From an uncultured Acidobacteriota bacterium (GTDB taxonomy: Bacteria > Acidobacteriota > Thermoanaerobaculia > UBA5066), in NCBI GenBank assembly GCA_903845115.1, contig CAIMWE010000174.1, positions 1 through 48,051 of the forward strand: 48,051 nt of DNA. Reading direction: 5' to 3'. The notes below the pieces were generated by a model. The model ran no database searches. It was not told the origin of the DNA and was given only the letters and a program-made list of their open reading frames with translations. This document shows positions 1 through 46,254 of this stretch, piece after piece. Both the position numbers and the translations under genes were made by a program. Numbering within the stretch: the first letter of the stretch is position 1; the number at the start of each line of letters is the position of its first letter.

Positions 1-3000
1 ATCGACGACCCGGCGCGGGTCGGCCTCGTCGAGGCCCACGGCACCGGGACCGCGCTCGGCGACCCGATCGAGCTCCACGCCCTCCGGGCGGTCCTCTGCC
101 CGCCGGCCCATCCCCGCGGCCCGCTCCTCGTCTCCTCCGTCAAGACGAACCTCGGGCACCTCGAGGCGGCGGCGGGGATCGCGGGACTCGTCAAGGCGGT
201 CCTGGCGCTCGGCCACGCGGAGGTCCCGCCGCACCTCCACTTCCGGCAGCTCTCTCCCCACATCGACCTCGGGGACGCCCCGATCGCGATTCCGACCGCG
301 CGGACGCCCTGGCCGGCGGCGGAATTCCCGCGCCTGGCGGGCGTCAGCTCGTTCGGGTTCAGCGGGACGAACATCCACGTCGTCGTGGAGGAGGCCCGTG
401 GCCTCCCGGAGCCGCCGCGCCTCCCCGACCGCGCGGCGCAGCTCCTCCTCCTCTCGGGGCGGACCCCGGAGGCGCTCCGGTCGGCGGCGTCGCGGCTCGA
501 GCGACACCTCGCGTCTCCCGCGGGGGAGGAGCTCGCCGGCGTCGCCGCCACGCTCGCGACGGGGCGTGCGCACCTCGCCGAGCGCTTCGCCGCGGTCGTC
601 CGCTCGCGCGAGGAGGGGCTCGCCGTTCTCTCCCGCTTCCGGAGCGGCGAGCGCTCCCCCGGGATCCTCTCGGGGCGCGCCGATCCGGGCGAGAGGCCGG
701 TCGTGGCGTTCCTCTTCACGGGACAGGGGGCGCAGGGACCGGGGATGGGGCGAGCGCTCTGGGACTCCGAGCCGCTCTTCCGCCGGGCGATCGAGGAGTT
801 CGACGCGGTCCTCGCGCCTCACCTCGACGTCCCGCTGCGCGATCTCCTCCTCGGGACCTCGGAGCCGGGGGCGATCCACGAGACCGCGAGGACGCAGCCG
901 GCCCTCGTCGCGCTCGAGCTCGCCCTCGTCCGCCTCCTCGGCTCCTGGGGCCTCGCTCCCGCCTGGACCTTCGGACACAGCGTCGGCGAGATCGCGGCCG
1001 CCGCGGCGGCGGGGATCCTCTCCGAGGGGGACGCCCTGCGCTTCGCGGCGAGGCGGGGAGCGCTGATGGGGGCCCTCCCCGCCGGGGGGGCGATGGCTGC
1101 CCTCCTCGCGCCGGAGGGGGAGGTCCGGGGGCTCCTCGGGCGCCTCCCGGCGGGGGAGCGGGCGCTCCTTTCGATCGCGGCGGTCAACGGGCCCTCGAGC
1201 ACGGTCGTCTCCGGCGGGGCGGGGGCCCTCGAGAGGTTCCTCGCGATCGCCTCGGCCGCGGGGCTCGCCTCCGAGAGGCTCACCGTCTCGCACGCCTTCC
1301 ACTCCCCGCTCCTCGAGCCGGTCCTGGACGAGCTGGAGCGGGTCGCGTCGGAGATGCCGCACGCGCCCGGCCGGGCGGGGCTCGTCCTCGACGTCACGGG
1401 AGCCGCCGCGCGGCCGGGGGAGCTTTGCGGGGCCTACTGGCGGCGGCAGGCGCGGGAGGCGGTCCGGTTCGACGAGGGGATCAGGTCCCTCGCGGCGCAG
1501 GGGGTCGACACCTTCGTCGAGGTGGGGCCGCACCCGGTCCTCGTCACGATGGGGAGGCGCTGCGTCGGCGCGCACGCCGGAAGAGCGCCGGCCTGGATCG
1601 GGACCCTCCGGCGCGGCGTCCCGGCCGACGGCGCTCTTCTCGCGGCCCTCGGCGAGCTGCACGTCCGGGGCGTCCCCGTCGACTGGAAGGGGGTCCACCG
1701 CGAAAGGGGACGGACCGTCACCCTCCCCTCCTACCCGTTCGAGCGGACGAGCCACTGGCTCCCTGCCGAGACGGGGTCCGCGCGGCCAGGCGACGAGGTG
1801 GCGACTGTGGCGACTGGGGAGACTGGGGTGTCCGCCCCGGCGCCCCCCCTGCCGGGACGCGCCATCGCCACGCCGCTGGCCCGGGCGGTCTTCGAGACGA
1901 CCGTCGGCCTCGAGACGTTCCCGCTCCTCGAAGGGCACGTGGTCGGCGGGCGGGTCGTCGTTCCGGGGGCCTTCCACCTCGCGGTGCTCGCGTCCGCGGC
2001 GCAGAGCCTCGTCCCCGGTCCCTTCGCTCTAGAGGCGGTCGCCTTCCGCGAGCCCCTCGTCCTCGCCGACGACGAGAGCCTCGTGCTGCAGGTGACCGCG
2101 GTGACGGGCCCTGCGCCCGGAACGCTCGACCTGCGAGTCGGGACGCTCCGGGGGGAGGAGTGGACCTCTCACGCCGAGGCGACCCTCGCGCCGATCGTCG
2201 GAGAGGGAGACCGCGCGGTGGAGGAGGCGGCCGGCCCCCTCTCGCCTTCGGATCCCGGGGAGGTCTACGCCTTCCTCGAGGCGACCGGCGTCTCCCTCGG
2301 GGCGGGATTCCGGTGGATCCGGAGCCTCCGGAGCGGACCGGGGGAGGCGGTGGCGACGCTCGACGGGGACGACGCCGGGTGGGCCGCCGCCGGGCTCCTC
2401 CACCCGGGACTCGTCGACGGGGCGTTCCAGGTGATCGCCGCCGCCGGAAGAGGGAGCGGGGGAGAGGGAGCGGCCCTGACCCTTCCCTTCGCCGTCGACC
2501 GCTTCGCCCTCCTCGGCCCTCTCGCCCCGCCCCTCACGGCGACGGCCCGCGTCCGCCCCTCCGGGGGAAGCCCTCCCCCGGGAGACGTCGTCCTGCGGGA
2601 CGCCTCGGGGCAGGTCGTTCTCGCCGTGCGGGGACTGCGCCTCAGAGAGGCCGACCGGGGCGCTCTCGCCGGGCACGGATCCGCGTGGCTTCACGAGGTC
2701 GCCTGGAGGGTCTCCCCGGTGCCGGACTCTTCTCCGTCGCTCTCCGGCCGCTGGCTCGTCGTCGCGTCGGACCCGCTTCTCGCACGCCGCGTCGCCGAGG
2801 CGGTGGAGAGGGCGGGCGCCTCCTGCGCCGTCGCGGTCGAGCGGCGAGCCGGCGGAGCGGTCGAAGCGACTGGTTCGAGGGGTCTCGCGGCGGACCCCGC
2901 CTCGGCGGAGGAGGTCGCGAGGCTCCTGGCGGCCGTCGAGACGGAGGGGTCTCTCTCGGGGGTCCTCGACCTCTGGCCGCTCGGGGCGGGTGAGGGCTCG

Positions 3001-4632
3001 CCGGAGGCAGACCTCGAGCGGGACCAGGAGCGGGTGGCGGCGGGAGCGCTCCACCTCGTCCAGGCGCTCGCCGCACGCGGCGTCCCGACGCGCCTCGTCC
3101 TCGTCACCCGGGGCGCGCAGGCCCTTCCCGGCGACGCTCCCGGGCGCGTCGCCCCGGTGCAGGCGCTCGCGTGGGGCCTCGGCCGGGTCGTTGCGCTCGA
3201 GTCTCCCGAGATGGGGCCGCTCCGGCTGGACCTCGATCCCGACCCCGAGGCGGACCTCGCCCGGGATCTCGTGGCAGCAGTTGCAGCGGACTCCGCATCC
3301 TCCCCCGTCGTTTCCGGGGATCGCGAGGAGGAGGTCGCCTTGCGCGGCGGCGTCCGCTTCGTCCCGCGCCTCGTCCGGTCGACCGGTGCAGGCGGTGCCG
3401 TCGGTACAGTCGACGCAGAGGGCGCTTCCGGCGGCGGATCGACCCACCCCGCGGAGGGGACGTTCCTCGTCACTGGAGGAATGGGGGGGCTGGGCCTCGC
3501 CGTGGCGCGTTTCCTCGCTGCACGCGGGGCCAGGGGGCTCGTCCTCGTCGGGAGAAGGCCCCCCTCCGGCCCGGCGCGGGAGGAGATCCGCGCGCTCGAA
3601 GCGGCGGGGGTCCGCGTCGAGACGGTCGCGGTCGACGTCTCGGAGGGTGGGGCGGCGGCGAGGATCAGGTCGGCGCTCGCCGGGCTCCCGCCGCTCGCGG
3701 GGGTCGTCCACGCCGCTGGGGTCCTGGACGACGCGACGCTCCTGCAGCTCGACTGGAGCCGCTTCCGGAAGGTCCTGGCGCCCAAGGTCGCCGGGACGCT
3801 GGCCCTCGCGGAGCTGGCCGGGGGAGTGCCGTTCGTCCTCTTCTCGTCCGCGGCGGGTCTCCTCGGGTCGGCGGGGCAGGGGGCCTATGCGGCAGCCAAC
3901 GCCTTCCTGGACAGTTTCGCCCCGGCCCGAGGGGCGCTCTCGGTCGGCTGGGGGCGGTGGTCGGGGAGCGGGATGGCGAGCCGGGCCGCGGCCGGCGGGC
4001 GGTGGCTCCGGTGGAGCGGTGCGGCCTTCGGCGAGATCTCTCCCGAGCGGGGGCTCGCGCTCCTCGACTTCCTCCTCTCCCGTGGCGGCGGCTCCTACGT
4101 CGCCGTCCTACCGGTCGACTGGGGGGCTCTCCTCGCCGGCGGCGAGTCCGGGACCGTCCCGCCCCTTCTCCGGGAACTCGCCCGGCCCGGGCCGCGGGTC
4201 CCGCCGGCCTCCCCCGAAACCCTCCGGGCGCGCCTCGAGAGCGCGCCGCCGGGGGAGCGGTACGACCTCCTCGCCGGCGGAATCTGGCGCGAGGCGCTCC
4301 GGACGCTCGGCCTCCCGGGGGGACGCCCCCTCGAGCCGCGCACCCCGCTCCGGGACCTCGGCCTCGACTCGCTGATGGCGGTCGAGGTCCGCAACGCGCT
4401 GGCCCGGCAGGTGGAGATGCCCCTCCCCGCGACGCTCCTCTTCGACTACCCGACGGTCGAGGCTGCGGCGCACGCCCTCTCGGAAAGGCTCGGCCTGGAG
4501 GCGGGCCTCGCGGTCGCCCCGCCCCCCTCCCCGGGGGTGGCGCGACAGGTGGAGGTCCTCGGTCGGATGTCCGAGGAGGAGCTTTCGGCCGTGGTCGACG
4601 ACGAGCTCGGGCACCTCCTGGAGGGCCCGTGA
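1..4632 (+). CDS. Type I modular PKS, partial at 5' end: module M1 (KS)-AT-DH-KR-ACP
   Basis: The frame is open from base 1, so the gene starts upstream; 1543 codons are visible. Residues 1-128 are the end of a ketosynthase, with catalytic His13 (AHGTGT) and His53 (KTNLGH). An acyltransferase follows (about 234-540), with Ser327 in GHSVGE and HAFH at 431-434, a malonyl-CoA-type signature. Next come a dehydratase (His646 in HVVGGRVVVP, Asp806 in LVDGAFQ), a ketoreductase with LVTGG and Tyr1296, and an ACP with its phosphopantetheine Ser1457 in GLDSL. The KR carries the LDD motif linked to B-type stereochemistry. The expected result is one malonyl extension ending as an alpha,beta-olefin. The C-terminus ends in an acidic helix (MSEEELSAVVDDEL) that looks like a docking element for the next protein. 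The KR helix after AANAFLD is about five residues shorter than in M4. The stop overlaps the next start by 4 bases. Family assignment is certain; the product is unknown. Confidence 0.97.
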   Translation: MDDPARVGLVEAHGTGTALGDPIELHALRAVLCPPAHPRGPLLVSSVKTNLGHLEAAAGIAGLVKAVLALGHAEVPPHLHFRQLSPHIDLGDAPIAIPTARTPWPAAEFPRLAGVSSFGFSGTNIHVVVEEARGLPEPPRLPDRAAQLLLLSGRTPEALRSAASRLERHLASPAGEELAGVAATLATGRAHLAERFAAVVRSREEGLAVLSRFRSGERSPGILSGRADPGERPVVAFLFTGQGAQGPGMGRALWDSEPLFRRAIEEFDAVLAPHLDVPLRDLLLGTSEPGAIHETARTQPALVALELALVRLLGSWGLAPAWTFGHSVGEIAAAAAAGILSEGDALRFAARRGALMGALPAGGAMAALLAPEGEVRGLLGRLPAGERALLSIAAVNGPSSTVVSGGAGALERFLAIASAAGLASERLTVSHAFHSPLLEPVLDELERVASEMPHAPGRAGLVLDVTGAAARPGELCGAYWRRQAREAVRFDEGIRSLAAQGVDTFVEVGPHPVLVTMGRRCVGAHAGRAPAWIGTLRRGVPADGALLAALGELHVRGVPVDWKGVHRERGRTVTLPSYPFERTSHWLPAETGSARPGDEVATVATGETGVSAPAPPLPGRAIATPLARAVFETTVGLETFPLLEGHVVGGRVVVPGAFHLAVLASAAQSLVPGPFALEAVAFREPLVLADDESLVLQVTAVTGPAPGTLDLRVGTLRGEEWTSHAEATLAPIVGEGDRAVEEAAGPLSPSDPGEVYAFLEATGVSLGAGFRWIRSLRSGPGEAVATLDGDDAGWAAAGLLHPGLVDGAFQVIAAAGRGSGGEGAALTLPFAVDRFALLGPLAPPLTATARVRPSGGSPPPGDVVLRDASGQVVLAVRGLRLREADRGALAGHGSAWLHEVAWRVSPVPDSSPSLSGRWLVVASDPLLARRVAEAVERAGASCAVAVERRAGGAVEATGSRGLAADPASAEEVARLLAAVETEGSLSGVLDLWPLGAGEGSPEADLERDQERVAAGALHLVQALAARGVPTRLVLVTRGAQALPGDAPGRVAPVQALAWGLGRVVALESPEMGPLRLDLDPDPEADLARDLVAAVAADSASSPVVSGDREEEVALRGGVRFVPRLVRSTGAGGAVGTVDAEGASGGGSTHPAEGTFLVTGGMGGLGLAVARFLAARGARGLVLVGRRPPSGPAREEIRALEAAGVRVETVAVDVSEGGAAARIRSALAGLPPLAGVVHAAGVLDDATLLQLDWSRFRKVLAPKVAGTLALAELAGGVPFVLFSSAAGLLGSAGQGAYAAANAFLDSFAPARGALSVGWGRWSGSGMASRAAAGGRWLRWSGAAFGEISPERGLALLDFLLSRGGGSYVAVLPVDWGALLAGGESGTVPPLLRELARPGPRVPPASPETLRARLESAPPGERYDLLAGGIWREALRTLGLPGGRPLEPRTPLRDLGLDSLMAVEVRNALARQVEMPLPATLLFDYPTVEAAAHALSERLGLEAGLAVAPPPSPGVARQVEVLGRMSEEELSAVVDDELGHLLEGP
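1798..1824 (+). repeat. 9-bp tandem repeat in the M1 AT-DH linker
   Basis: GTGGCGACT occurs twice in tandem (1798-1806, 1807-1815), then a degenerate third copy GGGGAGACT. It encodes Val-Ala-Thr repeats in an interdomain linker. Confidence 0.7.
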
Positions 4633-7600
4633 CGGTGCGCGAGCCGTTCGACGAGGTGCGCGACCTCTCGCCCCTGGCGAAGGCGGTCTGGGCTCTGAAG
4701 AAGACGCGGGGCCAGCTCGAGGCGCTCCGGCGCTCGCACGCCGAGCCGATCGCCGTCGTCGGGGCTGCCTGCCGCTTCCCCGGCGCGCCCGACCTCCGCT
4801 CGTTCTGGGAGCTTCTCGAGCGCGGCGAGGCCTCGCTCAGCGAGGTCCCTCCCGACCGGTGGGACATCGAGGCGACCTGGGACCCCGACCCGGACGCGCC
4901 CGGGAAGATGTACGTCCGGAGCGCGGGCTTCCTCCCGGACGTCGCCTCGTTCGACGCGCGCTTCTTCGGCATCGCTCCGCGGGAGGCCGCCCAGATCGAC
5001 CCGCAGCAGCGCCTCCTCCTCGAGGTCGCGTGGGAGGCGCTGGAGAACGCCGCGATCCCCCCGGGAGACCTTTTCGGGACCGCCACGGGCGTTTTCGTCG
5101 GGATCATGGCGGCCGAGTACGCCCACCTGCAGGCGCTCCACGGCGACCCCGCCCGGCAGGACGGGCACAGCGGCGTCGGGAGCGCCTCGAGCGTCGCGGC
5201 GGGGCGCCTCGCCTACGTCCTCGGCCTGACCGGGCCGGCGATGGCGATCGACACCGCCTGCTCGTCGGGGCTCGTCGCCCTCCACCTGGCGGTCCAGAGT
5301 CTGCGGGCGGGGGAGTGCCGGACCGCCCTCGTCGGAGGCGTGAACGTCATCCTGGCGCCCACCCCGATGATCCTCGCCTGCAGGGCCCGGATGCTCGCGC
5401 CCGACGGCCGGTGCAAGACGTTCGACGCGGCGGCGGACGGCTTCGGCCGGGGAGAGGGGTGCGGCGTCGTCGTCCTCCGCAGGCTCTCGGACGCCCTCGA
5501 GAGCGGCGACCGCGTCCTCGCCGTCGTCCGCGGCAGCGCGGTGAACCAGGACGGGCGGAGCGGCGGGTTGACGGCGCCGAACGGGCCGGCTCAGGCCGCC
5601 GTCATCCGGCAGGCGCTCGCCGCGGCCGGCGTCTCGCCGGACGAGATCGGGATGGTCGAGGCGCACGGGACCGGGACGCCGCTCGGCGACCCGATCGAGA
5701 TGGGGGCCCTCGTCGAGGTCTTCGGCACCTCCCGTCGGGAGAGACCTCTCTTCGTCGGCTCCGTCAAGACGAACGTGGGGCACCTGGAGGCGGCGGCCGG
5801 CCTCTCCGCCCTCCTGAAGACGGTGGAGGCGCTCCGCCACCGGACCGCTCCGCCGCACCTCCACCTCGAGCGGCTCAACCCGCGGATCGCGGAGCTCGGG
5901 ATCGACCGGGTGCCGATCGAGATTCCCCGCGAGGCGCTTCCCCTCCTTCCGATCGGTGGCCGGCGGCTCGCGGGCGTCAGCTCCTTCGGCTTCAGCGGGA
6001 CGAACGTCCACGTCGTCCTCGAGGAGCCTCCCTCGGCCGCCCCCGCGCCGGGCGACCTCCCCGCCGTCGTCCCGCTCTCGGCGCGGAGTCCGGGCGCCCT
6101 GCGGGCCCTCGCCGCGCGCTGGGCCGAGAGCCTCTCGCCGGGCCGTGCGGAGGGGCCCCCTCCGAGGCTCGCGGACGTCGCCTTCACGGCCGCGGCGGGA
6201 CGGACTCTCTTCCCCCACCGGGCGGCGATCGTGGCGTCGACCGTCGCCGATCTGCGCGAGAGGCTCGCCTCCCTCGCGCGGGGCGACGAGGGGCCCGCTC
6301 CATCCGGCGCGCCGGCTCACCTCGAGGAGGCGGCGGCCTCCTGGCGCCGCGGCCAGTCGGTCGACCTCGCAAGTCTGGTGGCCAGCGCCGACCCGCGGCG
6401 GGTGGAGCTTCCGTCCGTCGTCTTCGAGCGCGAGAGGCTCTGGATCGACCTGCCCGCTTCCCTCGCCGCTCCCGCCGCCCTGACGCACCCGGGCCTCCTC
6501 CACGCCGTGAGGTGGCAGGCGGCCCCCGTCGTCCCTTCCGTCGCGGTGCCGAGGCCCGGCCGCTGGCTCGTCCTCGGGCCCGGGGGCGAGCCCCTCGCGC
6601 TCCACCTGCGTGAGCGGGGCGTCGACGCGGAGTCCTCCCCGGGGATGCTCCCGCCGAGAGGCGCGGAGGGGGAGACCGCGGGCGTCGTCCTCCTCGCCCC
6701 GGAGGGAAGCGGAGATCCGGCGCGGGCGGCCGCGGAGATTGCCGGCACCGTCCTGGCCGCGCTCCGGGCGCTTCTCGGCCGGCCGGGAGAGGCGCCGAAG
6801 CTCTTCGTCGTGGCGCGCGAGGGCCTGGCGGCGTCGGTCCTCCGGGGCCTCGCGAAGGTTCTCTTCCTGGAGCACCCCGAGGTCCGCGGCGGGCTCGTGG
6901 AGCTCGGTCCCGGCGAGGGAGACGACGGACTCGGCCTCGTCGCGGCGCACCTCCTCGCCGGCGACGGGGAGACGGAGGTCCGCGTCGCGGGGGGCGTCAG
7001 GCAGGTCGCCCGGCTCGAGAGGCTCTCCGCTCCCCCCGCGCGGCTCGTCCTTCCCCCCGACGCGACGGTCCTCGTGACAGGCGGCCTCGGCGCCCTCGGC
7101 CTCGCGATCGCGCGGCGCCTGGTCGAGCGGGGGGCGCGGAGCCTCGTCCTCGTCGGCCGCCGCGGCGTCGACGAGCTCCCGGACGCCACGCGCGCCGCCG
7201 TCGCCTCCCTGGGCGACTCGGGAGCGACGGTCTGGACCCGGAGGGCCGACGTCTCCTCCCCGGGCGACGTCGGGCGGATCCTCGAGGAGATCCGCGCGGG
7301 GGCCCCGCCCCTCGACATGGTCGTTCACGCGGCCGGGGCGCTCGCCGACGCGGTCCTCCTCCGGACCGGTCCGGAGGCGCTCGCGGCGGCGTTCGCGCCG
7401 AAGGTCGCGGGAGCGTGGAACCTCCACGAGGCGACGCAGACGACGGGACTCTCCCGCTTCGTCCTCCTCTCGTCGGCCGCCGCCGTCCTCGGCTCGCCGG
7501 GGCAGGCGGCCTACGCGGCGGCCAACGCCTTTCTCGACGGCCTCGCCCGGAGCCGCCGGGAGGAAGGGCTTCCGGCGACGAGCCTCGCCTTCGGGCCGTG

Positions 7601-10600
7601 GGCGGGCGAGGGAATGGCCCGCGACCTCTCCCGCGTGAGGCCAGGCCCCGTGACCCCCCTCGAGCCGGCCCGGGCCCTCGACGCTTTCGAGGAGGTCCTC
7701 GCGGCCGGGAACCAGCTTCCCCCGGACCTCTCGGTCCTCGACGCCGACTGGGCGTCTCTCTCGAGGGAGACCTCCCTCGCGTCCGGCCCGGTCTCTCGCC
7801 TCCCGTCGATTCTCCGCGGCCTCGCGGGAGGGGAGAGCCGGGAAAAGGGTTCCCCGCTCCCCGAGGAACTCGGGCGTCTCGACGGCGCCTCGCGCGCGGC
7901 GCGGCTGGGCGACATCGTCCGGAAGGAGGTTGCGCGGGTCCTCGGCCTTGCGCCCGGCGAGGTGGACGCCCGGCGCGGTTTCGCCGACTCGGGGATGGAC
8001 TCGCTCCTCGCGATCGACCTGAAGAACGCGCTGCAGGCCCTCCTCGGGATCCCCCTCGCGCCGACCGTCGCGATCAACCACCCGACGGTGGAGACGCTCG
8101 CGACGCACCTCGATGGAATCCTTTTCCCGGAGGGGACCGGCGCTCCTGTCCCCTCCGGGCAGGCGGTCCTCCCGGCGGAGGCGCCGCGCGGCGACGACCC
8201 GATCGCCGTCGTCGGGATCGGCTGCCGCTTTCCGTCGGGATCGGGGCCCGACCTCGAGGGGCCCGGGGCGTTCTGGGAGTTCCTGGCGGAGGGAGGCGAC
8301 GCGGTGAGCGAGGTCCCGAAGGAGCGGTGGGATCCCGCCACCGACGGCGGGCCGCGGTTCGGGGCCTTCCTCTCCGGGGTCGACCTCTTCGACGCCTCGT
8401 TCTTCGGGATCTCGCCCCGCGAGGCGGAGGTGACCGACCCGCAGCAGCGGCTCCTCCTCGAGGTGGCCTGGGAGGCGCTCGAGGACGCGGGGCTCCCGGC
8501 GGACGGCCTCCGGAGGTCGGCCACGGGGGTCTTCGTCGGGATCGACAGCACCGACTACGCGCGGGTCGTCGCGCGCGCGGCCGCCGGAGGAGCCGAGGTC
8601 GACTCCCACGTCGGGACGGGGAACTCGCTCAGCGTCGCCGCCGGGAGGATCAGCTTCGTCCTCGGATTCCACGGCCCGACGATGGCGGTCGACACCGCCT
8701 GCTCCTCCTCGCTCGTCGCGGTCCACCTCGCGGCCGAGAGCCTCAGGCGCGGCGAGTGCACCCTGGCGCTCGCGGGCGGAGTCAACGTGATCCTGACGCC
8801 GGAGACCTCCTCGCTCTTCGAGAAGGCCGGGATGCTGGCCCGCGACGGCCACTGCAAGACGTTCGACGGCGCGGCCGACGGCTACGTCCGGGGAGAGGGG
8901 TGCGCCCTCCTCGTCCTGGAGCGGCTGTCGGTCGCCACTGCCCGAGGGGACCGCGTCCTCGCCCTGATCCGCGGCTCGGCGGTCAACCACGACGGGCCGA
9001 CCAGCGGGCTGACCGTTCCCTCGGCCCCTGCGCAGGAGGCTCTCCTCCGGGGGGCTCTCCGGGCGGCCGGCGTCGCCCCCTCCGCGGTCGGCTACCTCGA
9101 GGCGCACGGGACCGGGACGCCCCTCGGCGACCCGATCGAGATGGAGGCGATCGGCGCGGTCCTCGGAGCCGGGCGGAGCGCGGACGACCCCCTCCTCGTC
9201 GGATCGGTGAAGACGAACCTCGGGCACCTGGAGCCGGCGGCGGGGGTGGCCGGGCTGGTGAAGACCGTCCTCGCCCTCGCGCACCGTGCCGTTCCCCCTC
9301 ACCGGAACTTCTCGAGGCCGAGCCCCTTCATCGACTGGGAACGGCTCCCGGTCCGGATCCCGACCGCCCTCGAGGCCTGGGAGCCCCGTTCGAGGCGCCG
9401 GATCGCCGGCGTCAGCGCGTTCGGCCTGTCCGGGACGAACGCCCACGTCGTCGTCGAGGAGGGGCCCGGGACCCCGTTCTCTCCCGCGGCCGAGCCGCTC
9501 TCAAGGCCCGTCGTCCTGCCGCTCTCGGCGCGGGACCCGGGGGCGCTCCGCGACCAGGCGGCGCGGTGGGCCGACCTTCTCGAGCGGGGAGGGGAGGGCT
9601 CGGACCTGCCGAGCGTCGCCTTCACCGCGGCCACCGGGCGCGCCGGCCTCCCCTTCCGGGCCGCGGTGGTGGCCACCTGCCGGGAAGAGGCGGTCAGGGC
9701 CCTCCGAGGACTCGCCGGCGGGACGGAGGCGCCTGGCCTCGTGGTCGACGGGGAGCCGCGGGACGAAGGCGATGGCGATGGCGACGGCACGGACGCGGCG
9801 CGGACCGCCGCGGAGGCGTTCGTCCGGGGGGAGAGCCCCGACTGGGCGCCCCGTTTCGCCGGCCTCCCGGTCCGCAAGGTGGCTCTCCCGACCTACCCCT
9901 TCCGCAGGAGGCGCCACTGGATCCAGGCGCCTGCCGCGGGGCAGGGCGAGGTCCGGCGCGCGGGGGGCCACCCGCTGATCGGGCATCGCGTCTCCTCGCC
10001 GGCACTCGAGGCCGTCGTCTTCGAGGCCCTCCTCGGCGCGTCCGACCCCTCCTTCCTGGCCGACCACGTCGTCCAGGGGCTCGTCATCGTCTCGGGCCCG
10101 ACCGAGATGACGATGGCGGTCGAGGCGGTGCGGAGCGCCCTCCTGGCGGAGGCGGGGATTGTCCTGGAGGAGGTCCTCTTCGAGGTGCCGCTCGTCCTCT
10201 CCCCCGGCATCCCGCGGACGGTCCAGACGATCCTCTCCGCGGCCGAAGCGGGGGGGTGGCGCTTCGAGATCGTCAGCCGCGGGAACGAATCGGGCTGGGT
10301 CCGGCATGCGAGCGGAAGCCTGCGGGTCGAGGACGGGGAGGAGGAGACGGCCCCGGCAGCCGGGGCATCGGCCGCGGGGGAGAAGATGTCGGGGACGTCG
10401 TTCTACGCCGACGTGGCGCCCCGCTTCGGGTTCGCGTTCGGCCCGGCCTACCGCTGGATCGAGGAAGTCGAGCGGGGTACTGACGAGGCCGGGGCCCGGA
10501 TGCGCCCCGCCACGGCCGCGGAGGCCGCGCCGTACCTCGTCCCCCCCGGACTCTTCGACAGCGCCTTCCAGCTCTCGATGGCGGTCCTCGCCGACGAGGG

Positions 10601-22510: not shown

Positions 22511-25500
22511 GCGGCGGAGCCCTGGAAGCCAAGCAGCAGGCCCTCCTGGCCCTTCGCTCGATGCAGGCGCGGATCGAAGCGCTCGAGCGCGAGCGGAGCG
22601 AGCCGATCGCCGTCATCGGAACCGCCTGCCGCTTCCCCGGGGGCGTCCACGACCTCGCATCGTTCCGGGTACTCCTCGAGGGGGGCGTCGATGCGGTGTC
22701 GGAAGTCCCTGCCGTCCGCTGGGACGTCGACGCGTTCTACGCGCCCGAGCCGGGGACGCCGGGGAAGATGTACACGCGCCGGATGGGGTGGGTCGAGGGA
22801 GCCGACCTCTTCGACCCCGCCTTCTTCGGGCTCGGCGTCCGCGAGGCGGTCCGGATGGACCCGCAGCACCGCCTCCTCCTCGAGGCCGCGTGGGAGGCGC
22901 TGGAGGACGCGGGGCAGGCGCCCGGCTCTCTCTCCGGCTCGTCGACCGGCGTCTTCGTCGGCATCTCGACGAGCGACTACGCCCAGATGGCCCTGACCTC
23001 CCTTGCCGGCGGGGCGATCGACGCCTACGCCTCGACGAGCGCGGCCTTCAGCGTGGCGGCGGGGCGGATCTCATACCTCCTCGGCCTCCAGGGCCCCTCC
23101 ATCGCTCTCGACACGGCCTGCTCCTCGTCGCTCGTGGCGGTCCACCTCGCGGCGGAGAGCCTCCGGCTCGGCGACTGCCGGATGGCGCTGGTGGGCGGGG
23201 TCAACCTCGTCCTCTCCCCGCTCGCCACCGTCGCCCTCTGCCAGATGCGGATGATGGCGCCCGACGGGCGCTGCAAGACGTTCGATGCCTCCGCCGACGG
23301 CTACGTCCGGGGCGAGGGGTGCGGCCTCGTCGTCCTCAAGCGGCTCGGGGACGCACGGAAGGATCGGGACCGGATCCTCGCCGTGATCCGCGGATCGGCC
23401 GTCAACCAGGACGGGAGGAGCGGCGGGCTGACCGCTCCGAACGGCGCGGCCCAGGAGGCGGTGATTCGCCGGGCGCTCGCGAACGGGCGGGTCGAGTCGC
23501 GCGAGGTCGGGTACGTCGAGGCGCACGGGACCGGGACCGCGCTCGGCGACCCGATCGAGATGCAGGCCCTCGGCGCCGTCTACGGCGAGGGACGGGAGCG
23601 CTCGGAGCCCCTTCGCGTCGGCTCGGTGAAGACCAACCTCGGGCACCTGGAGGCCGCGGCCGGCATCGCGGGGCTCCTCAAGGCGGTGGCGACGGTCGGA
23701 GCGCGTTCCATCCCCCCGCACCTCCACCTCCGCAACCCCAGCCCCCACATTCCCTGGGAGAGGCTCGCCGTCGAGGTGCCGACCTTCCCGGCGCCGTGGC
23801 GGGACGGGCGGCGGGTCGCCGGCGTCAGCTCCTTCGGTTTCAGCGGCACGAACGCCCACGTGATCGTCGAGGAGGCTCCGCCGGACGCGCGCTCCCCGGA
23901 CACGGGAGAGCGAGGGGAGCGGGACCTCGTCCTCCCCCTCTCGGCGAGGACGCGGGGGGCGCTCCGGGAGCTGGTGGAGCGGACCCGGGAGTTCCTCCGG
24001 GACGACGCGAGGACCCTGGACCACTGCTTCACGGCGGCCACCGGGCGCACCGGCCTGCCGCTCCGGATCGCCGTGGTCGGCCGCTCGCGCGAGGAGCTCC
24101 GCTCCGCGCTCGACGCCTACCTTCGCTCCGAGAGCTCGCCGGGGTTGGTCGAGAGCGGGCGCACGCCTCCTTCCGCGTGCATGGCGGACGGCGCGGACGG
24201 TGCCGCCGACGCGGGGGCTCTCTCCGTCGCCCGCCGCTGGGTCGCGGGGGACGAGGTCGACTGGAAGCCCCTCTTCTCCGGCAGGGACGTCCGCCGGGCC
24301 CCGCTTCCGACCTACCCCTTCCAGCGGATCCGCTGCTGGATGGAGGGGTTCGGAACGCTCGACGTCCCCGAAGCGCCCGGAAGCCCGGCGGCGGGAGGCC
24401 CGAGGCCCGCCGTCTACGACCTCTCCTGGACCGGGGCGGAATCCGAGGAGAGGCCCGGCGCCGCGCCCGAGGCGGGCGGCCCCCTTCGCTGGCGAATCGT
24501 GGCCGACGCCGGCTCCGCGCCCCTCGCCTCGGCTCTCGCCAGGAGCCTGGAGAACGCGGGGTGCCTGGAGGTCGCCGTGGCCGATGCCCTCCCGGAGCCG
24601 GGAGACGGGCAGACGCGCGAGGGGGTCGTCGTCCTCGCGGCAACCGGGGACGCGGGGGCCGAGACCTCCCCGGCCCAGGCCGCCCGGTCGGCGCCGGGCG
24701 CGTGCCTGGGCCTCCTCGCCGCGCTCCGCGGTGCGACGGCGCGCCGACCGGCCGCGTCGCGCTTCGTCGTCGTCACGAGGGGAGCCGGGGCTCCGAGAGG
24801 GCCCCTGGAGATGGAGCGGACCGTCAGCGCGGTCGCGGTCTCGGTCGCGGCGCTCGGGCGGACCCTCCTCGCGGAGCACCCGGAGCTTTCTCCCTCGCTC
24901 GTCGACCTCGACCCGGACGAGCCGGCCACCGGGCAGGCGGACGCGCTCGCCCGCGAGCTCCTGGCGGACGCGGGAACCGGAGGAGGCCGCGAGGTGGCCC
25001 TCCGGCGCGGGAAACGCCTCGTCCCGCGCCTCGTCGCGCGCCCCTCCCCGGGCGGCGTCCCCGTCCCGCCGCTCAGGACGGCCGGCAGCGCGCTGATCAC
25101 CGGGGGGCTCGGGGCGCTCGGCCTGGCGCTGGCCGCGCGACTCGCGAAGCGCGGCGTGAAGAAGATCATCCTCGCCGGGCGAGGTGGAGAGGAAGGAGCG
25201 GACGAGGAGACCCGGCGCGCCCTCTCCGCCCTCCGCGCGGGGGGCGCCGACGTCCGCGTCGTCACGGCGGACGTGACCCGCCGGGAGGATGTCGAGCGGC
25301 TCCTCGCCCCCTCTCCCGGCGCCGGAGAGCCCCCCGTCACCGCCCTCTTCCACGCCGCCGGTGTCCTCTCGGACGCGCTCCTCGCCAACCAGACGGAAGA
25401 GAACGTGCGGACCGCCTTCGGGGCGAAGGCCCTCGGCGCGGCCCTTCTCGACGAGGTGTCGAGGGAGCTGGGGCTCCCGCTCGACACCTTCGTCCTCTTC

Positions 25501-28500
25501 TCCTCGGCCGCGGCGCTCCTCGGCCCCCCCGGCCAGGGGAGCTACGCCGCCGCGAACGCCTTCCTCGGGGCGCTGGCGAGGAAGAGGCGCGAGGACGGGC
25601 TCCCGGCGCTCGCCGTCCACTGGGGCCCGTGGGCGGGGCGAGGGATGGCGGCGAGGACGGACCGCCGCGGCCTGGCCGCGCGCGGCCTCGGCCTCCTTCC
25701 GGCCGAGGCGGCCCTGGACGCGCTGGAGCGGCTCGTCGCCGACGGCTCCGCGGAGGGGGCGGTCCTCGTCCTCGACCGGTCCTTCTTCGCGGGAGCCCCG
25801 GCGAAGGCCCTCCCGGATCTCCCCCGGCGCCTGGGAGGCCTCCCCCCGGAGGAGAGGCAGGGGGTCGCCGCCTCCTTCGTCCGGGGCCAGGTGGCCGACC
25901 TTCTCGGTTTCACCGACCCCGGGGCAATCGACACCCGCCGCGGCTTCTTCGACCTCGGCCTCGACTCGCTCCTGGCGCTGGAGCTGCGGGGACGGCTCCA
26001 GGCCGCGCTCGGGGAGGATCGTCCGCTCCCCTCGACCCTGATCCTCGACCACCCCACCGTCGAGAGCGTCGCGGCCCGGCTCGTGCGCGAGCTGGGCGAC
26101 GGAGCAGAGCCGGACCTTTCCCGCGCGCCGTCGACGACTCCTCTCCGCCTCGCCTTCGACCCGATCGCGATCGTCGGCCTCGCCGTCCGGTTTCCCGGGG
26201 CTCCCGACGTCGATTCGTTCCGGGAGCTTCTCGTCGAAGGGCGGGACGCGATCACCGTCGTCCCCGCCACGCGATGGGACGTGGAGGCCCTCTACGACCC
26301 GGACCCCGACGCCCCGGGAAAGATGGCGACCCGCTGGGGGGGCTTCGTCGACGGGGTCGAGTCGTTCGACGCGCGCTTCTTCGGGATCACCCCTCGCGAG
26401 GCCGCCTCGATCGACCCGCAGCACCGGTTCCTCCTCGAGGAGAGCTGGCACGCCCTCGAGGACGCCGGGATCCCGGCCGAGAGCCTCGAGGGGACGAGGA
26501 CGGCGGTCTTCGTCGGGATCAGCGGGAACGACTACGGCCCGCTCCTCGCCGGGGGAGACCGCTCGCGCGTCACCGCCCACTTCGGCCTCGGAAACTCGTT
26601 CAGCGCGGCAGCGGGGAGGATCGCCTACACCTTCGGCCTGACGGGGCCGGCGGTGGCGCTCGACACGGCCTGCTCCTCGTCCCTGGTGGCGCTGCACCAG
26701 GCGGCGGCGAGCCTGAGGACGGGAGAGGCGAGCCTCGCGCTGGCCGCCGGTGTGAACCTGATCCTCGCCCCGGAGGCGACGATCAACCTCTCCCGCGCCC
26801 GGATGATGGCGCCCGACGGGCGGTGCAAGACGTTCGACGCCTCCGCCGACGGCTACGTCCGGGGAGAGGGGTGCGGCGTCGTCGTCCTCGAGCGGCTCTC
26901 GGACGCGGTGGCGAACGGACACCCGGTCCGCGCCCTCCTGCTCGGCTCCGCGGTGAACCAGGACGGGAGGAGCGCCGGCCTGACGGCGCCGAACGGGCCG
27001 TCCCAGGAGGCGGTCCTCGCGGAGGCTCTCGCCTCTGCCGGAGTCGCCCCCGCAGACGTCGACTACGTGGAGGCTCACGGGACCGGGACCTCCCTCGGCG
27101 ACCCGATCGAGCTCCACGCGATGGGGGCGGTCTACGGGAAGGGGAGGCCCGCGGACCGGCCCCTCCTCACCGGGTCGGTCAAGACGAACCTCGGGCACCT
27201 CGAGGCCGCCGCCGGGATGGCGGGGCTGGCGAAGGCGGTCCTCACCCTCGAGGCGGGAGAGGTGCTGCCCCATCTCCACCTGAAGACTCCGAACCCGCTG
27301 GTCGACTGGGACCGGATCGCCGTCCGCGTCCCGACGGAGAAGACCCCCTGGCCCTCGACGGGGCGCCCCCGCCGGGCGGCCGTCAGCTCGTTCGGCTTCA
27401 TCGGGACGAACGCCCACGTGATCCTCGAAGCGGCCCCGGCTCCGCTCGCGGATGCGCCGGAGCGGGAGGAGGCCGCCTGGGAGACGCAGCTGCTCCTCCT
27501 CTCGGCCCGCTCGCCGGAGGCGCTGCGCGACCTCGCGTCGAGATTCGAGGAGCGCCTCCGTACCGGGACCGCCGACCGGGAGCTGGGCGACATCGCCTTC
27601 TCGGCGCGCGCCGGCCGGTCGGCCCTGGCGCACCGCCTCGCGATCGTCGGCGCCACGGCGGGGGAGATCGCCGACGGCCTCGCGGCCTTCCGCGAGGGGA
27701 GGACCGGCGCGGGGATCGCTCGTGGCGTGGCGAGCTCCGTGCCCTCTTCCGGACCCCCTCCAGGGTCCCCGCTCTCTCTCCCCGAGCCCTTCACGAGGGA
27801 AGCGCTGGAGCGTCTCGGCGCCGCGTGGGTCCGGGGAGACCGAGTCGATCTCGAGCCCCTCGACCGGCGCTCCTCGAGGAAGAGGGTGAGGCTTCCGCTC
27901 TACCCCTTCCGGAAGGAGAGGCACTGGGGACCGGACCTGCCGGGAGCGATCGCTCCTCCCGTCGCCGGGGTCCCTGTCGCCGCACGACCCTTCCTCGGAC
28001 CGGCCCTGGCGACGGCGTTCGGGGCGACGCTCTTCGACACGACCTGGAGCGCGGCGTCTCTGCCGTTTCTCGCGGAGCACCGGATCCACGGCCGGATCGT
28101 CGTGCCGGGCGCGGCCCACGTCTCCCTCGTCCTCTCGGCTCTCCGTTCGCTCCACGGGCCGGGTCCCTGGCGCCTCTCGGACGTCAGCTTCCCCGAACCG
28201 CTCGTCCTCGGCGAGGAGGAGCACCGTCGCGTGCAGCTCGTCCTCGGACCGGGCGAGAGCTTCCAGGTTGCGAGCCGACGGGAGGGACCGGTCGAGCCGT
28301 TCGTCGTCCACGCGCGCGGAAAGGCGGCCCCGCTCGTTGACGCCGCGCCGGTGGACGGGCCCCGGCCAGCGACGGCGCCGCAGGCGCCCCCGGGGGAGAG
28401 CATCCCCGGCACGGCCCTCCGAGAGGAGCTGTCGCTGCGCGGGATCTCCCTCGGTCCGTCGTTCGGGTGGATCGAAAGCGTCGTCCCCGGCCCCGGCGCT

Positions 28501-30741
28501 GCGACGGGCCTCCTCGAGAGACCGCGCGACCTCTCCCTGCGGGGCCTCGAGGGGACCTTCGCCGCGGCGCTCCACCCGGGTCTCCTCGACTCGGTCTTCC
28601 AGCTCGTCGCCGCCGCGCTCCCGGGGGCGGCGCTGCGCGACACCGCCTACGTCCCGTTCGCTTTCGAGCGGCTGGACGAGAAGGCCGCGGACGCCCCGCT
28701 CGACGGGCTCGAGGCGCGGGTCGCCGTCTCGCACGAGGAAGGGGTCCGCTCCAGCGTCGTGGCGAGCTTGTCGATCGGCGACGGGAAGGGGAGAGAGCTC
28801 TTCTCGATCGAGGGGCTGACGCTGCGGGCCGCGCCTCGTGAGGCGTTCGCGCCCGGGACGACGGGGAGCGCCGACGCCGGCCAGGAGCTCTTCCAGCTGG
28901 CCTGGAGGCGTGTGGCCGCGCCCGGGCCTGGCGCCACGGGCGGCCGGTGGCTCGTCCTGGGCGGCCAGGAGGGCGACGGAGAGCGGCTCGCCGCCGCCCT
29001 CGTCCGGTCCGGCGTGGACGCCAGGTCGCTCCGGGACCTCGAGGGCAGGTCGCTGATCGCGTCGGCGGCGGGGGCCGGCCCGGAGAGGATCGTCTTCCTC
29101 GCCGGCGAGGAGTCGGGAGGGGACCCGTTCGCCCAGTGCCGGCGGCTCCTTCTCCTCTGTCAGGCGCTGGCCGGGAGCGCCGGCGATGCGACCCGCCTCG
29201 ACGTCGTGACGAGGGGGGCGCAGGGGGTCTGCGACGAGGACGCCCGGCTGTCGACGGGAGGCGCGGCCGTCTGGGGCCTCGTCCGCTCGCTCGCGCAGGA
29301 GCACCCTGGCCTCGCCCCGCGGCTCGTCGACCTTCCGGCCGCGCGGAGAGTCCCCGCCGGCGCCCTGGCGAGCGAGCTCGAGGAGGCGCTCGCCGCCGAG
29401 CTCCTCGCGGCCGACCGGAGCGAGACCCAGGTGGGGCTCCGGATCTCGGGACGCTTCGTCGCGCGCCTCGCAGGGCTGCCGCTCGCGCCCGGGGGCCGCC
29501 TCGCGCTGCGCGAGAAGTCGACCCACCTCGTCACGGGGGGCCTCGGGGCCCTCGGGCTCCACGTCGCCCGCCTCCTCGTCGCGCGCGGCGCAGGACGCGT
29601 CGTCCTCGCGGGACGGGGCGAGCCGGGAGCGGCCGCCCGCGCCCTCGTCGCCTCTTCGGGCGGGTCGGTCGAGGTCGTCCGCGCCGACGTCTCGCGGGAG
29701 GAGGAGGTCGCGCGACTCCTCGAGACGGTCCGCAGGAGCGGCCCCCCGCTCGCCGGGGTCTTCCACGCCGCGGGGGTCCTCGACGACGGGGCGCTCCTGC
29801 GGCTGACGTGGGAGCGGTTCGAGAAGGTCCTCGCGCCGAAGGCCCGCGCCGCCCTCCTCCTCGACCGGGAGACGGAAGGGGACCGCCTCGACCACTTCGT
29901 CCTCTTCTCCTCCGCCGTCTCTCTCCTCGGCGCCGCGGGGCAGGCGAGCTACGCCGCCGCGAACGCGGCGCTCGACGCCCTCGCCCTCGACCGCCAGCGG
30001 CGCGGGCTTCCCGGCCTCTCGGTCTCCTGGGGGCCGTGGGCGGGGGAGGGGATGGCGGCGCGCGCCGGCGACGAGGCCCGTCGCGTCCGCGAGGAGCGCG
30101 GGATCGCCCTCCTCCCGCCCTCGCGCGCCCTGGAGCTGCTCGAGAGGCTCCTCGTCGCGGGTCTCCCTCACGCCACCGTCCTCCCCGTCCGGTGGGAGCG
30201 CCTCCTCCGGCCGGTCCCCGCGGGCGTCCCCCCGTTCCTGGCTGAGGTCGCGCCGCCAGGCGGAGAGGCGCTTTCCGCGAGCCCGTCCCCCGCGGCCGCC
30301 GCCCGTCCCGCCCGTCCGGCCCCTCCCGCCTGGGGACCCCTCCTCGCGGGGCGCCAAGGCGCCGCGCTGCGCGAGCGGATCGCCGAGCTGATCGCCGAGA
30401 GGGCCGCGGCGGTGATGGGGCTCGCCGATCCGTCGGCGGTCGCTCGCGGCGTCCCGCTCCTCGAGCAGGGGCTCGACTCGTTGATGACCCTCGAGCTGGC
30501 CCGCACGCTCGAGGAGTCGAGCGGGATCGCGGTCCCGGCGACGACCGTCTTCCGGCACCCGACGGTCGAGGGGCTCGCCGGCCACCTCTCGGAGAGGCTC
30601 GCCCCTGCGGCCGTGAAGGAGGTCCCCGAGCCGCTGCCGGCCGAGATCGCGGCGCTCGGGGAGGAGGAGCTACGCTCGGCGCTCGCGAGAGAGCTGGACG
30701 CCATCGGCGAAGGGGACGCCCCGGGCGGCCCCAGGAGGTGA
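22507..30741 (+). CDS. Type I modular PKS, two AT-less modules: M6 KS-KR-ACP and M7 KS-DH-KR-ACP
   Basis: The ATG at 22507 overlaps the previous stop (ATGA), with GGAGG at 22495-22499. The protein has 2744 residues and an N-terminal helical docking segment (about 1-33). M6: KS (Cys205), KS linker ending in LPTYPFQRIRCW without an AT, KR (ITGG near 865, Tyr1013), ACP (Ser1154). M7: KS (Cys1389), linker ending LPLYPFRKERHW, DH (His1858 in HRIHGRIVVP, Asp2028), KR (LVTGG at 2341, LDD motif, Tyr2482), ACP (Ser2658). Predicted output is a beta-hydroxyl from M6 and an olefin from M7. There is no thioesterase, reductase or condensation domain after the last ACP. Instead about 60 residues end in an acidic helix (LGEEELRSALARELDAI) like the docking tails of the three upstream proteins. 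The gene is the last PKS gene on this side of the cluster. Confidence 0.97.
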   Translation: MSGGALEAKQQALLALRSMQARIEALERERSEPIAVIGTACRFPGGVHDLASFRVLLEGGVDAVSEVPAVRWDVDAFYAPEPGTPGKMYTRRMGWVEGADLFDPAFFGLGVREAVRMDPQHRLLLEAAWEALEDAGQAPGSLSGSSTGVFVGISTSDYAQMALTSLAGGAIDAYASTSAAFSVAAGRISYLLGLQGPSIALDTACSSSLVAVHLAAESLRLGDCRMALVGGVNLVLSPLATVALCQMRMMAPDGRCKTFDASADGYVRGEGCGLVVLKRLGDARKDRDRILAVIRGSAVNQDGRSGGLTAPNGAAQEAVIRRALANGRVESREVGYVEAHGTGTALGDPIEMQALGAVYGEGRERSEPLRVGSVKTNLGHLEAAAGIAGLLKAVATVGARSIPPHLHLRNPSPHIPWERLAVEVPTFPAPWRDGRRVAGVSSFGFSGTNAHVIVEEAPPDARSPDTGERGERDLVLPLSARTRGALRELVERTREFLRDDARTLDHCFTAATGRTGLPLRIAVVGRSREELRSALDAYLRSESSPGLVESGRTPPSACMADGADGAADAGALSVARRWVAGDEVDWKPLFSGRDVRRAPLPTYPFQRIRCWMEGFGTLDVPEAPGSPAAGGPRPAVYDLSWTGAESEERPGAAPEAGGPLRWRIVADAGSAPLASALARSLENAGCLEVAVADALPEPGDGQTREGVVVLAATGDAGAETSPAQAARSAPGACLGLLAALRGATARRPAASRFVVVTRGAGAPRGPLEMERTVSAVAVSVAALGRTLLAEHPELSPSLVDLDPDEPATGQADALARELLADAGTGGGREVALRRGKRLVPRLVARPSPGGVPVPPLRTAGSALITGGLGALGLALAARLAKRGVKKIILAGRGGEEGADEETRRALSALRAGGADVRVVTADVTRREDVERLLAPSPGAGEPPVTALFHAAGVLSDALLANQTEENVRTAFGAKALGAALLDEVSRELGLPLDTFVLFSSAAALLGPPGQGSYAAANAFLGALARKRREDGLPALAVHWGPWAGRGMAARTDRRGLAARGLGLLPAEAALDALERLVADGSAEGAVLVLDRSFFAGAPAKALPDLPRRLGGLPPEERQGVAASFVRGQVADLLGFTDPGAIDTRRGFFDLGLDSLLALELRGRLQAALGEDRPLPSTLILDHPTVESVAARLVRELGDGAEPDLSRAPSTTPLRLAFDPIAIVGLAVRFPGAPDVDSFRELLVEGRDAITVVPATRWDVEALYDPDPDAPGKMATRWGGFVDGVESFDARFFGITPREAASIDPQHRFLLEESWHALEDAGIPAESLEGTRTAVFVGISGNDYGPLLAGGDRSRVTAHFGLGNSFSAAAGRIAYTFGLTGPAVALDTACSSSLVALHQAAASLRTGEASLALAAGVNLILAPEATINLSRARMMAPDGRCKTFDASADGYVRGEGCGVVVLERLSDAVANGHPVRALLLGSAVNQDGRSAGLTAPNGPSQEAVLAEALASAGVAPADVDYVEAHGTGTSLGDPIELHAMGAVYGKGRPADRPLLTGSVKTNLGHLEAAAGMAGLAKAVLTLEAGEVLPHLHLKTPNPLVDWDRIAVRVPTEKTPWPSTGRPRRAAVSSFGFIGTNAHVILEAAPAPLADAPEREEAAWETQLLLLSARSPEALRDLASRFEERLRTGTADRELGDIAFSARAGRSALAHRLAIVGATAGEIADGLAAFREGRTGAGIARGVASSVPSSGPPPGSPLSLPEPFTREALERLGAAWVRGDRVDLEPLDRRSSRKRVRLPLYPFRKERHWGPDLPGAIAPPVAGVPVAARPFLGPALATAFGATLFDTTWSAASLPFLAEHRIHGRIVVPGAAHVSLVLSALRSLHGPGPWRLSDVSFPEPLVLGEEEHRRVQLVLGPGESFQVASRREGPVEPFVVHARGKAAPLVDAAPVDGPRPATAPQAPPGESIPGTALREELSLRGISLGPSFGWIESVVPGPGAATGLLERPRDLSLRGLEGTFAAALHPGLLDSVFQLVAAALPGAALRDTAYVPFAFERLDEKAADAPLDGLEARVAVSHEEGVRSSVVASLSIGDGKGRELFSIEGLTLRAAPREAFAPGTTGSADAGQELFQLAWRRVAAPGPGATGGRWLVLGGQEGDGERLAAALVRSGVDARSLRDLEGRSLIASAAGAGPERIVFLAGEESGGDPFAQCRRLLLLCQALAGSAGDATRLDVVTRGAQGVCDEDARLSTGGAAVWGLVRSLAQEHPGLAPRLVDLPAARRVPAGALASELEEALAAELLAADRSETQVGLRISGRFVARLAGLPLAPGGRLALREKSTHLVTGGLGALGLHVARLLVARGAGRVVLAGRGEPGAAARALVASSGGSVEVVRADVSREEEVARLLETVRRSGPPLAGVFHAAGVLDDGALLRLTWERFEKVLAPKARAALLLDRETEGDRLDHFVLFSSAVSLLGAAGQASYAAANAALDALALDRQRRGLPGLSVSWGPWAGEGMAARAGDEARRVREERGIALLPPSRALELLERLLVAGLPHATVLPVRWERLLRPVPAGVPPFLAEVAPPGGEALSASPSPAAAARPARPAPPAWGPLLAGRQGAALRERIAELIAERAAAVMGLADPSAVARGVPLLEQGLDSLMTLELARTLEESSGIAVPATTVFRHPTVEGLAGHLSERLAPAAVKEVPEPLPAEIAALGEEELRSALARELDAIGEGDAPGGPRR

Positions 30742-32215: not shown

Positions 32216-33106
32216 TCAGTGTGCTGGGCCTGGCGGCGGGCTTCCCTCCAGGCGGGACAGCAGCCCCTCGAAGAACTCCCGCGACCAGAGCTTCACGGCG
32301 TCCGCGTCGCGCAGGAACGGCAGAACGTCTCTCTTTGCTGCCTCGAAGTCCACTGTGGCGAACCTGGCCGAGAGGAGGGCCTTCAATTCGGCAAGACCGA
32401 GCACCTGGTCCCCTTCCCACCCGCCCGTCTGCCTGAGCCTCGCCTCGAGATGCGCGAGCCTGACCCTCGTCCTGCGCCCGATGTACCAGACGAAGTCGTA
32501 GTAATCGCGGCCTTTGACGCAGCGGTGCTTCCAATCTCTTTGAAGAATTGCGTGGAGCTTCCCCGCGAAGAGATCGGGCAGCTGGAAGGTGTTGACGGCG
32601 AAAGGGATGGGCTGGAGAAGGACCATGGCTTCCGTCTCGAAGCCCCCCGGAGGGTCGGTATCAACCTCGAGCTTGACCTTGAGTAACGAGCTGACCGGCG
32701 TACGCCTCGAGATGGCATCTGGCACCCCGATCCGGAGCAGGTGCTCGCGAGTGCCCGCCTTGATGAAAGCGGAGTCGATCGCACGCTCCACGCCCTTCTC
32801 GCGTGCTTCGACCTTCACAGCGAAGCCCAGGGATTCCAGCTCCGCCTTGACTGCGCCGAGGTACGGCTGTAGCCGGAAGCCCGGCTGGGACTCCAGCAGC
32901 GAGAAGTCGAGATCCTCCGAAAAGCGATCGAGTCCGTAGAGGATCCGAAGCGCGGACCCTCCATAAAAGGCCGCATGCTCGAAGAGCTTGGCACGCCAGA
33001 GCCCCAGGAGCGCGATCTCCTGGATGATTTCCTTGAGCGCGTTTTCGTAGTCGCGCGCCGTGGCCGGTTCGTAGCGATCGAGCATGGCGACGACGGCGGG
33101 TTTCAT
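32216..33106 (-). CDS. abiEii: AbiEii-type toxin (nucleotidyltransferase, type IV toxin-antitoxin)
   Basis: The 296-residue product starts at ATG 33106-33104, preceded by GGGAGG five bases away. The ATG overlaps the antitoxin stop as ATGA, so longer upstream starts are not needed. Residues near 51-71 read FYGGSALRILYGLDRFSEDL followed by DFSL, the GGxxLRxxYGxxRxSxDLDF motif of the AbiEii/DUF1814 nucleotidyltransferase family with its metal-binding Asp pair. In characterised AbiE systems the toxin is a nucleotidyltransferase that causes reversible growth arrest and can block phage. A later KGRDYYDFVWYI segment also fits the family. The gene is full-length and uninterrupted, unlike its neighbours. 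Codon use is less GC-extreme than the PKS region, which suggests separate acquisition. Confidence 0.88.
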   Translation of the reverse strand: MKPAVVAMLDRYEPATARDYENALKEIIQEIALLGLWRAKLFEHAAFYGGSALRILYGLDRFSEDLDFSLLESQPGFRLQPYLGAVKAELESLGFAVKVEAREKGVERAIDSAFIKAGTREHLLRIGVPDAISRRTPVSSLLKVKLEVDTDPPGGFETEAMVLLQPIPFAVNTFQLPDLFAGKLHAILQRDWKHRCVKGRDYYDFVWYIGRRTRVRLAHLEARLRQTGGWEGDQVLGLAELKALLSARFATVDFEAAKRDVLPFLRDADAVKLWSREFFEGLLSRLEGSPPPGPAH

Positions 33107-41433: not shown

Positions 41434-41560
41434 GGGGAGCGGTCCTCGCGAGAAAGGGCTGGAGATCTCTGGTCAGGACGGCCGCGACGACGCGCTGACC
41501 GGCCGGATTGGGATGGACGCCGTCGGGGAGATTCAGCTCGGGCCTGGAGTGTCCAGCCAC
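41414..41560 (-). pseudogene. C-terminal remnant of a GDSL/SGNH esterase
   Basis: The minus strand reads ELNLPDGVHPNPAGQRVV, then AAVLTRDLQPFLAR, and stops at TGA 41416-41414. The DGVHPNPAG block is the final catalytic motif (Asp-x-x-His) of GDSL/SGNH hydrolases, followed by the usual C-terminal helix. The rest of the enzyme, including the GDS nucleophile block, is absent; upstream the neighbouring gene ends at 41585. The remnant's stop lies inside the 3' end of the TPR-CHAT gene. Confidence 0.6.
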
Positions 41561-41584
41561 TGCGACCGGGCCTCTGCCTCGAAG

Positions 41585-44566: not shown

Positions 44567-44572
44567 GCGGAC

Positions 44573-46254
<1,682 letters not shown>

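Follow-up and report, generated by a model that had tools for sequence, protein, structure and literature searches.

The stretch of DNA analysed here (the window, 48,051 nt) is the whole of contig C174 in the draft genome of an uncultured Acidobacteriota bacterium, which comprises 5.85 Mb in 305 contigs (96% complete, 1.7% contamination). By its RpoB the organism falls with Acidobacteriota: over the longest segments, identity is 64% to a named Acidobacteria MAG and 52-55% to the other named phyla, and it reaches 70% with a class-mate genome. Bases 1-30741 are occupied by four PKS genes in the same direction (P1 to P4), each overlapping the next by 4 bp and together carrying modules M1 to M7 (Table 1); the P2 start is a GTG that overlaps the P1 stop. 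An AbiEi/AbiEii toxin-antitoxin pair adjoins the PKS on the minus strand (32216-33813; PADLOC, 1e-61 and 2e-105). Further along are a 1641-aa protein with about 19 TPR repeats and a CHAT protease domain at its C-terminus (36508-41433) and, after it, a 1503-aa protein with no Pfam match (41513-46024).

Table 1. PKS genes, AT domains, KSs and AT-less junctions in the window.
Feature	Position	Strand	Basis
P1: M1 = KS(C-terminal part)-AT-DH-KR-ACP	1..4632	+	Pfam; 5' end on contig C255
AT of M1, GHSVGE / HAFH, Ser at 979-981	709..1674	+	PF00698 8e-62; motifs
P2: M2 = KS-[no AT]-KR-ACP; M3 = KS-[no AT]-DH-ACP	4629..11312	+	Pfam, no PF00698
KS of M2, C-H-H intact	4731..6032	+	
M2 KS-AT linker fused to post-AT linker (LPSVVF), AT absent	6033..6470	+	
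KS of M3, C-H-H intact	8184..9467	+	
M3 KS-AT linker fused to post-AT linker (LPTYPF), AT absent	9468..9944	+	
P3: M4 = KS-AT-DH-MT-ER-KR-ACP; M5 = KS-[no AT]-KR-ACP, single polypeptide	11309..22510	+	Pfam
AT of M4, GHSIGE / HAFH, Ser at 13274-13276	13007..13936	+	PF00698 5e-61; motifs
KS of M5 (AT-less), cis-AT lineage, C-H-H intact	18794..20098	+	
M5 KS-AT linker fused to post-AT linker (LPTNPF), AT absent	20099..20608	+	
P4: M6 = KS-[no AT]-KR-ACP; M7 = KS-[no AT]-DH-KR-ACP	22507..30741	+	Pfam, no PF00698
KS of M6, cis-AT lineage	22588..23880	+	
M6 AT-less linker junction (LPTYPF)	23881..24366	+	
KS of M7, cis-AT lineage	26146..27438	+	
M7 AT-less linker junction (LPLYPF)	27439..27951	+	

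GHSxGE followed by HAFH is the usual motif pair of malonyl acyltransferases (ATs). The first-pass annotation of this DNA, made from the letters alone, had placed GHSxGE ATs solely in M1 and M4, and the Pfam search agrees, with PF00698 matches in the window only in these two modules and the catalytic serines at exactly the positions noted. Nor is there an AT between the KS linker and the post-AT motif in M2, M3, M5, M6 or M7, as had been claimed: AT-fold sequence in these linkers would have told against the claim, but a sensitive AT HMM that scores M1 and M4 at 480-504 bits gave the M2, M3, M5, and M7 linkers less than 4 bits and that of M6 no match. Between KS end and post-AT motif lie 131-163 aa in each module without an AT; M1 and M4 have 441-444 aa there, and the difference (~290 aa) corresponds to roughly one missing AT domain. 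The post-AT motifs, described at first as LPTYPF-type, are all present, but are more varied than that (Table 1). The succession of a cis-AT module (M4) and an AT-less one (M5) on a single protein is likewise borne out by Pfam.

A model of the M5 KS and linker (AlphaFold2, 8 sequences, mean pLDDT 69) is consistent with a missing AT; its Z-scores, 47-48 against cis-AT KS-AT didomains (with the AT skipped) and 44-46 against trans-AT KSs, do not discriminate between the two. In terms of the usual classes, a cis-AT modular PKS has an AT in every extension module, and here just two of the seven window modules have one; the lack of an integrated AT that marks trans-AT systems is seen in M2, M3, M5, M6, and M7, and not in M1 or M4. 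The joint presence of AT-bearing and AT-less modules in the same line is that of a mixed cis/trans-AT PKS.

Loss of five AT domains through an assembly collapse had been raised as a concern at the outset. The genome is a draft, metagenome-style assembly, and contig breaks do fall inside KS repeats, but the M1 and M4 ATs are just 65% identical in DNA and are not collapsible repeats, the AT-less linkers are unlike one another, and every junction is in frame. Comparable AT-less junctions also occur in independent assemblies (L069, L091, G064, G067), among them a Planctomycetota MAG (JACQVV010000274), a Deltaproteobacteria MAG (PDZT01000125), and two genomes of the same class. Collapse thus seems a most improbable explanation. 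The Planctomycetota contig (L069, JACQVV010000274.1) encodes an AT-less KS-KR-ACP-sulfotransferase-TE arrangement, with a CurM-like ending and cis-type KSs, as well as an AT-less KS-DH-ER-KR-ACP module, also with a cis-type KS.

The line extends upstream onto contig C255, whose final 141 bases recur unchanged as the opening 141 of the window and, in frame, code for part of the M1 KS. C255 encodes, in order, KS-DH-MT-ER-KR-ACP with no AT, KS-KR-ACP, and the beginning of the M1 KS. The second of these modules retains an AT remnant (41 bits), with GEGGGE replacing GHSxGE and the small subdomain absent. Two further AT-less modules therefore lie upstream, and seven of the nine known modules are without a working AT. 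In addition, the KS-AT linker of the second C255 module, immediately before M1, is frameshifted (locus L023, at about 9585-9631), through either a sequencing error or a real lesion.

The KSs of the AT-less modules point to a cis-AT origin. Against PDB chains with one KS, those of M5 and M6 score 577-581 bits with CurL (cis-AT) and at most 419 bits with trans-AT KSs. The top PDB match, 7zma (758 bits), was considered as a sign of trans-AT affinity and set aside; its score sums two KSs (about 347 + 361), which leaves CurL as the best single-KS match. Phylogenies of the KSs and linkers against cis-AT and trans-AT references had been proposed in the first-pass annotation, and the KS part of this check places the AT-less KSs with the cis-AT ones, not with the trans-AT ones. 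In trees of 108 and 51 KSs, the window KSs sit among AT-bearing KSs, and the trans-AT KSs of the same genome (on contigs C119, C141, and C30) cluster with trans-AT KSs from a thiomarinol plasmid, Bacillus, and Azospirillum. A tree constrained to place these five KSs inside the trans-AT clade, whose own support is moderate (86/69), is rejected (-152 lnL, p-AU 0.0004), and one that makes the five AT-less KSs a clade of their own is disfavoured (p-AU 0.021), both under a simple model with no mixture. Because a single AT-less clade is disfavoured, AT loss was probably repeated, or the modules were shuffled after the loss. In named genomes, 144 of 151 clear cases of a KS of this type have an AT after it. 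In a search of 149 class genomes, those of the listed modules that fit the AT-less model over its full length with more than 700 bits all come from this genome.

Judged from their sequences, then, the AT-less KSs are of cis-AT descent and fall outside the trans-AT KS clade. The genome does have trans-AT PKSs, on C119, C141, and C30, from which AT-less modules might have been imported by recombination, but as far as the KSs are concerned the tree, the AU test, and the CurL match all speak against this, and such an origin is hardly credible.

ATs in several states of preservation are found elsewhere in the genome. Besides those of M1 and M4, there are intact ATs on contig C254 and in both members of a tandem pair on C18. 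The AT on C147 keeps GHSLGE and has the small subdomain deleted; that on C58 has lost both the small subdomain and the Ser, with GSGPGA replacing GHSxGE; and the AT is gone entirely from M2, M3, M5-M7, C241, C69, and the first C255 module. The tandem ATs are part of a KS-AT-AT-MT-KR-ACP module (L013, G000:C18; 3721-5898, minus strand), the first with an AYHG-type motif and the second with HAFH (malonyl-type).

A similar series is found in a class-mate genus, g18, in one conserved module. In most genomes its Ser is replaced (GFDAGE, GFGAGE, or GSDAGE) and the small subdomain removed, and in two genomes the AT is completely lost. The decay there runs parallel to that in the present genome, along the same route. 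The KS of the decayed module lacks a DTACS motif in the two genomes examined. At g18 loci L039-L048 and L051, and at L040 and L043, a conserved PKS protein has a second KS with a decayed AT (no Ser, no small subdomain) or no AT after it. Two Desulfamplus MAGs (L106 and L133, ~9992-13342) encode a protein in which one KS directly succeeds another. No AT comes after the second KS in L106, and L133 has a 28-bit trace of one there, so this may be a further instance of AT decay. In Anabaena (L090, 6005-9724), the place of the AT after a KS of the same type is taken by an acyl-CoA dehydrogenase domain with an ACP.

In the line studied here, the loss of ATs seems to have happened in place and one module at a time. 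Neither this decay, with its visible remnants, nor the cis-AT descent of the AT-less modules was part of the first-pass annotation, whose interpretation is partly supported. It might be supposed that the losses are degenerative and the line no longer functional, as the AT remnants without Ser, the frameshift in the C255 module, and the absence of a thioesterase (TE) from C174 by Pfam would allow. The rest of the line does not have this character: there are no premature stops across the ~30 kb of P1-P4, every complete KS in the window keeps its catalytic Cys and both His, the ACP serines are present, and the junctions fall cleanly at the borders of the linkers. A dead pathway is accordingly improbable, although the frameshift and the missing TE may mean that it is partly degenerate or incomplete.

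If the line works, the AT-less ACPs would receive malonyl groups from malonyl-CoA in trans; the AT-less modules still have their KS and ACP, along with linkers and reductive domains, and are presumably active. Two supply routes had been suggested, a discrete AT or the two embedded ones, together with a genome search for a standalone malonyl-CoA AT. Both routes still stand, and the search has strengthened the first, since a discrete AT of trans-AT type is encoded in the same genome, on contig C119. This 285-aa protein scores over the TIGR00128 cut-off and groups with two Bacillus trans-ATs (100/100; 51% identity) in a comparison that leaves out the C18 ATs, so that the discrete malonyl AT expected in the genome of a trans-AT system is present here. 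C119 carries a trans-AT cluster with this AT, a 334-aa AT of the Bacillus AT2 type, and a TE-terminated PKS. An apparent PPTase-like ORF is also seen in the cluster (L018, L019). The base composition of the contigs fits a single genome. No discrete AT was seen on C174 or C255, both of which are incomplete, so one could lie past an end.

The C119 AT is the likeliest candidate to load the AT-less ACPs; as its gene is on another contig and beside a different PKS, its use by this line is something that we infer. Somewhat favoured overall is a cis-AT line with in-place losses in which two ATs were kept and the remaining modules are predicted to be loaded in trans by this enzyme. M5 could instead, or additionally, be loaded by the M4 AT on the polypeptide they share. 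Extended to the whole line, that idea would have the M1 and M4 ATs supply the AT-less modules next to them, with no part for a discrete AT. It has a precedent in aureothin, where AT3 can substitute for the inactive AT4 (PMC6916388; PMC9899208), and the layout of P3 would be compatible with inter-module loading of that type. P2 (M2, M3) and P4 (M6, M7), however, have no AT at all, so the embedded ATs would need to serve other polypeptides, and the genome does hold a discrete malonyl trans-AT. In g18, the protein that carries the affected KS also has one intact AT, and a FabD-type AT is all that these genomes encode besides. This could be taken as a natural test of neighbour loading; it was rejected as a clean one because the protein stops after the post-AT linker, leaving the AT-less KS without an ACP on that protein, and what g18 shows is AT decay alone. 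Loading by the embedded ATs alone is possible but rather unlikely.

The g18 genomes could equally be cited for a third source, the housekeeping FabD, since this is the type of AT that they hold besides the embedded one, and in the present genome the FabD-type AT on contig C222 adjoins KR- and KS-family genes. With a dedicated trans-AT-type AT available, and no support for FabD in the sequence, there is little probability that it loads the AT-less modules.

Overall, the line looks like an ordinary 'cis' PKS turning into a 'trans' PKS. To our knowledge, such a change in place is not usually thought to happen in bacteria. There is perhaps an even chance that a cis-AT line has been caught here in the course of becoming AT-less, by repeated independent losses within one line (inactivation and small-subdomain excision, then full removal), possibly permitted by the discrete AT of an unrelated trans-AT cluster. 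If so, this would be a second, in-place origin for bacterial AT-less modules. In the open-access papers searched, no bacterial precedent was found for cis-AT-derived AT-less modules with visible intermediates, and a search of mostly open-access literature turned up no relevant account of AT remnants in cis-AT PKSs, a weak negative. With its cis-AT KSs and with ATs that are intact, dead, or cleanly deleted, such a line would offer graded natural test objects for AT loss, both for natural deletion borders and for which ATs serve cis-type modules in trans, and the borders in M2, M3, and M5-M7 are ready-made AT-removal designs for PKS engineering.

Mixed cis/trans lines, and a single dead AT served by a neighbour, are already known. 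That mixed lines have been catalogued, and that an AT-bearing module followed by one with an inactive AT has been published for aureothin, was missing from the first-pass annotation. What is unusual here is the extent of AT loss and the preserved intermediates, and it is the occurrence of these intermediates together with the descent of the AT-less modules from cis-AT ones that is notable. The AT4 of aureothin synthase is undersized and inactive, and AT3, from the penultimate module, can replace it (PMC6916388). This too is a cis-AT line with a shrunken, dead AT for which a neighbouring module's AT substitutes, but only one module is affected and the small AT4 is kept, whereas here the ATs are entirely gone from five modules in the window, two more are affected upstream, and several of the modules are on AT-free polypeptides. 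Kirromycin is also made by a hybrid line with AT-less and AT-bearing modules and a discrete malonyl AT available. It has AT-less KirAI-AV and, in KirAVI, a sole cis-AT protein (PMC5818483), so that each kind has proteins to itself; in the present line a single protein carries both M4 and M5, and the AT-less modules have KSs of cis-AT descent.

On a broader scale, 473 of 8,799 catalogued PKSs contain both kinds of module (PMC10394414). They share the mixed architecture of the present line, but in the accessible part of that catalogue they are grouped by architecture and AT decay intermediates are not reported. The type I PKSs of algae, for which displacement of integrated ATs in trans from a cis-AT ancestor has been proposed (PMC4661987), are perhaps comparable in outcome, but these are eukaryotic and the displacement is nearly complete; the present case is bacterial and part-way, with remnants remaining. 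The closest solved single KS is from the CurL-type cyanobacterial cis-AT modules, in which the AT that is absent here is present.
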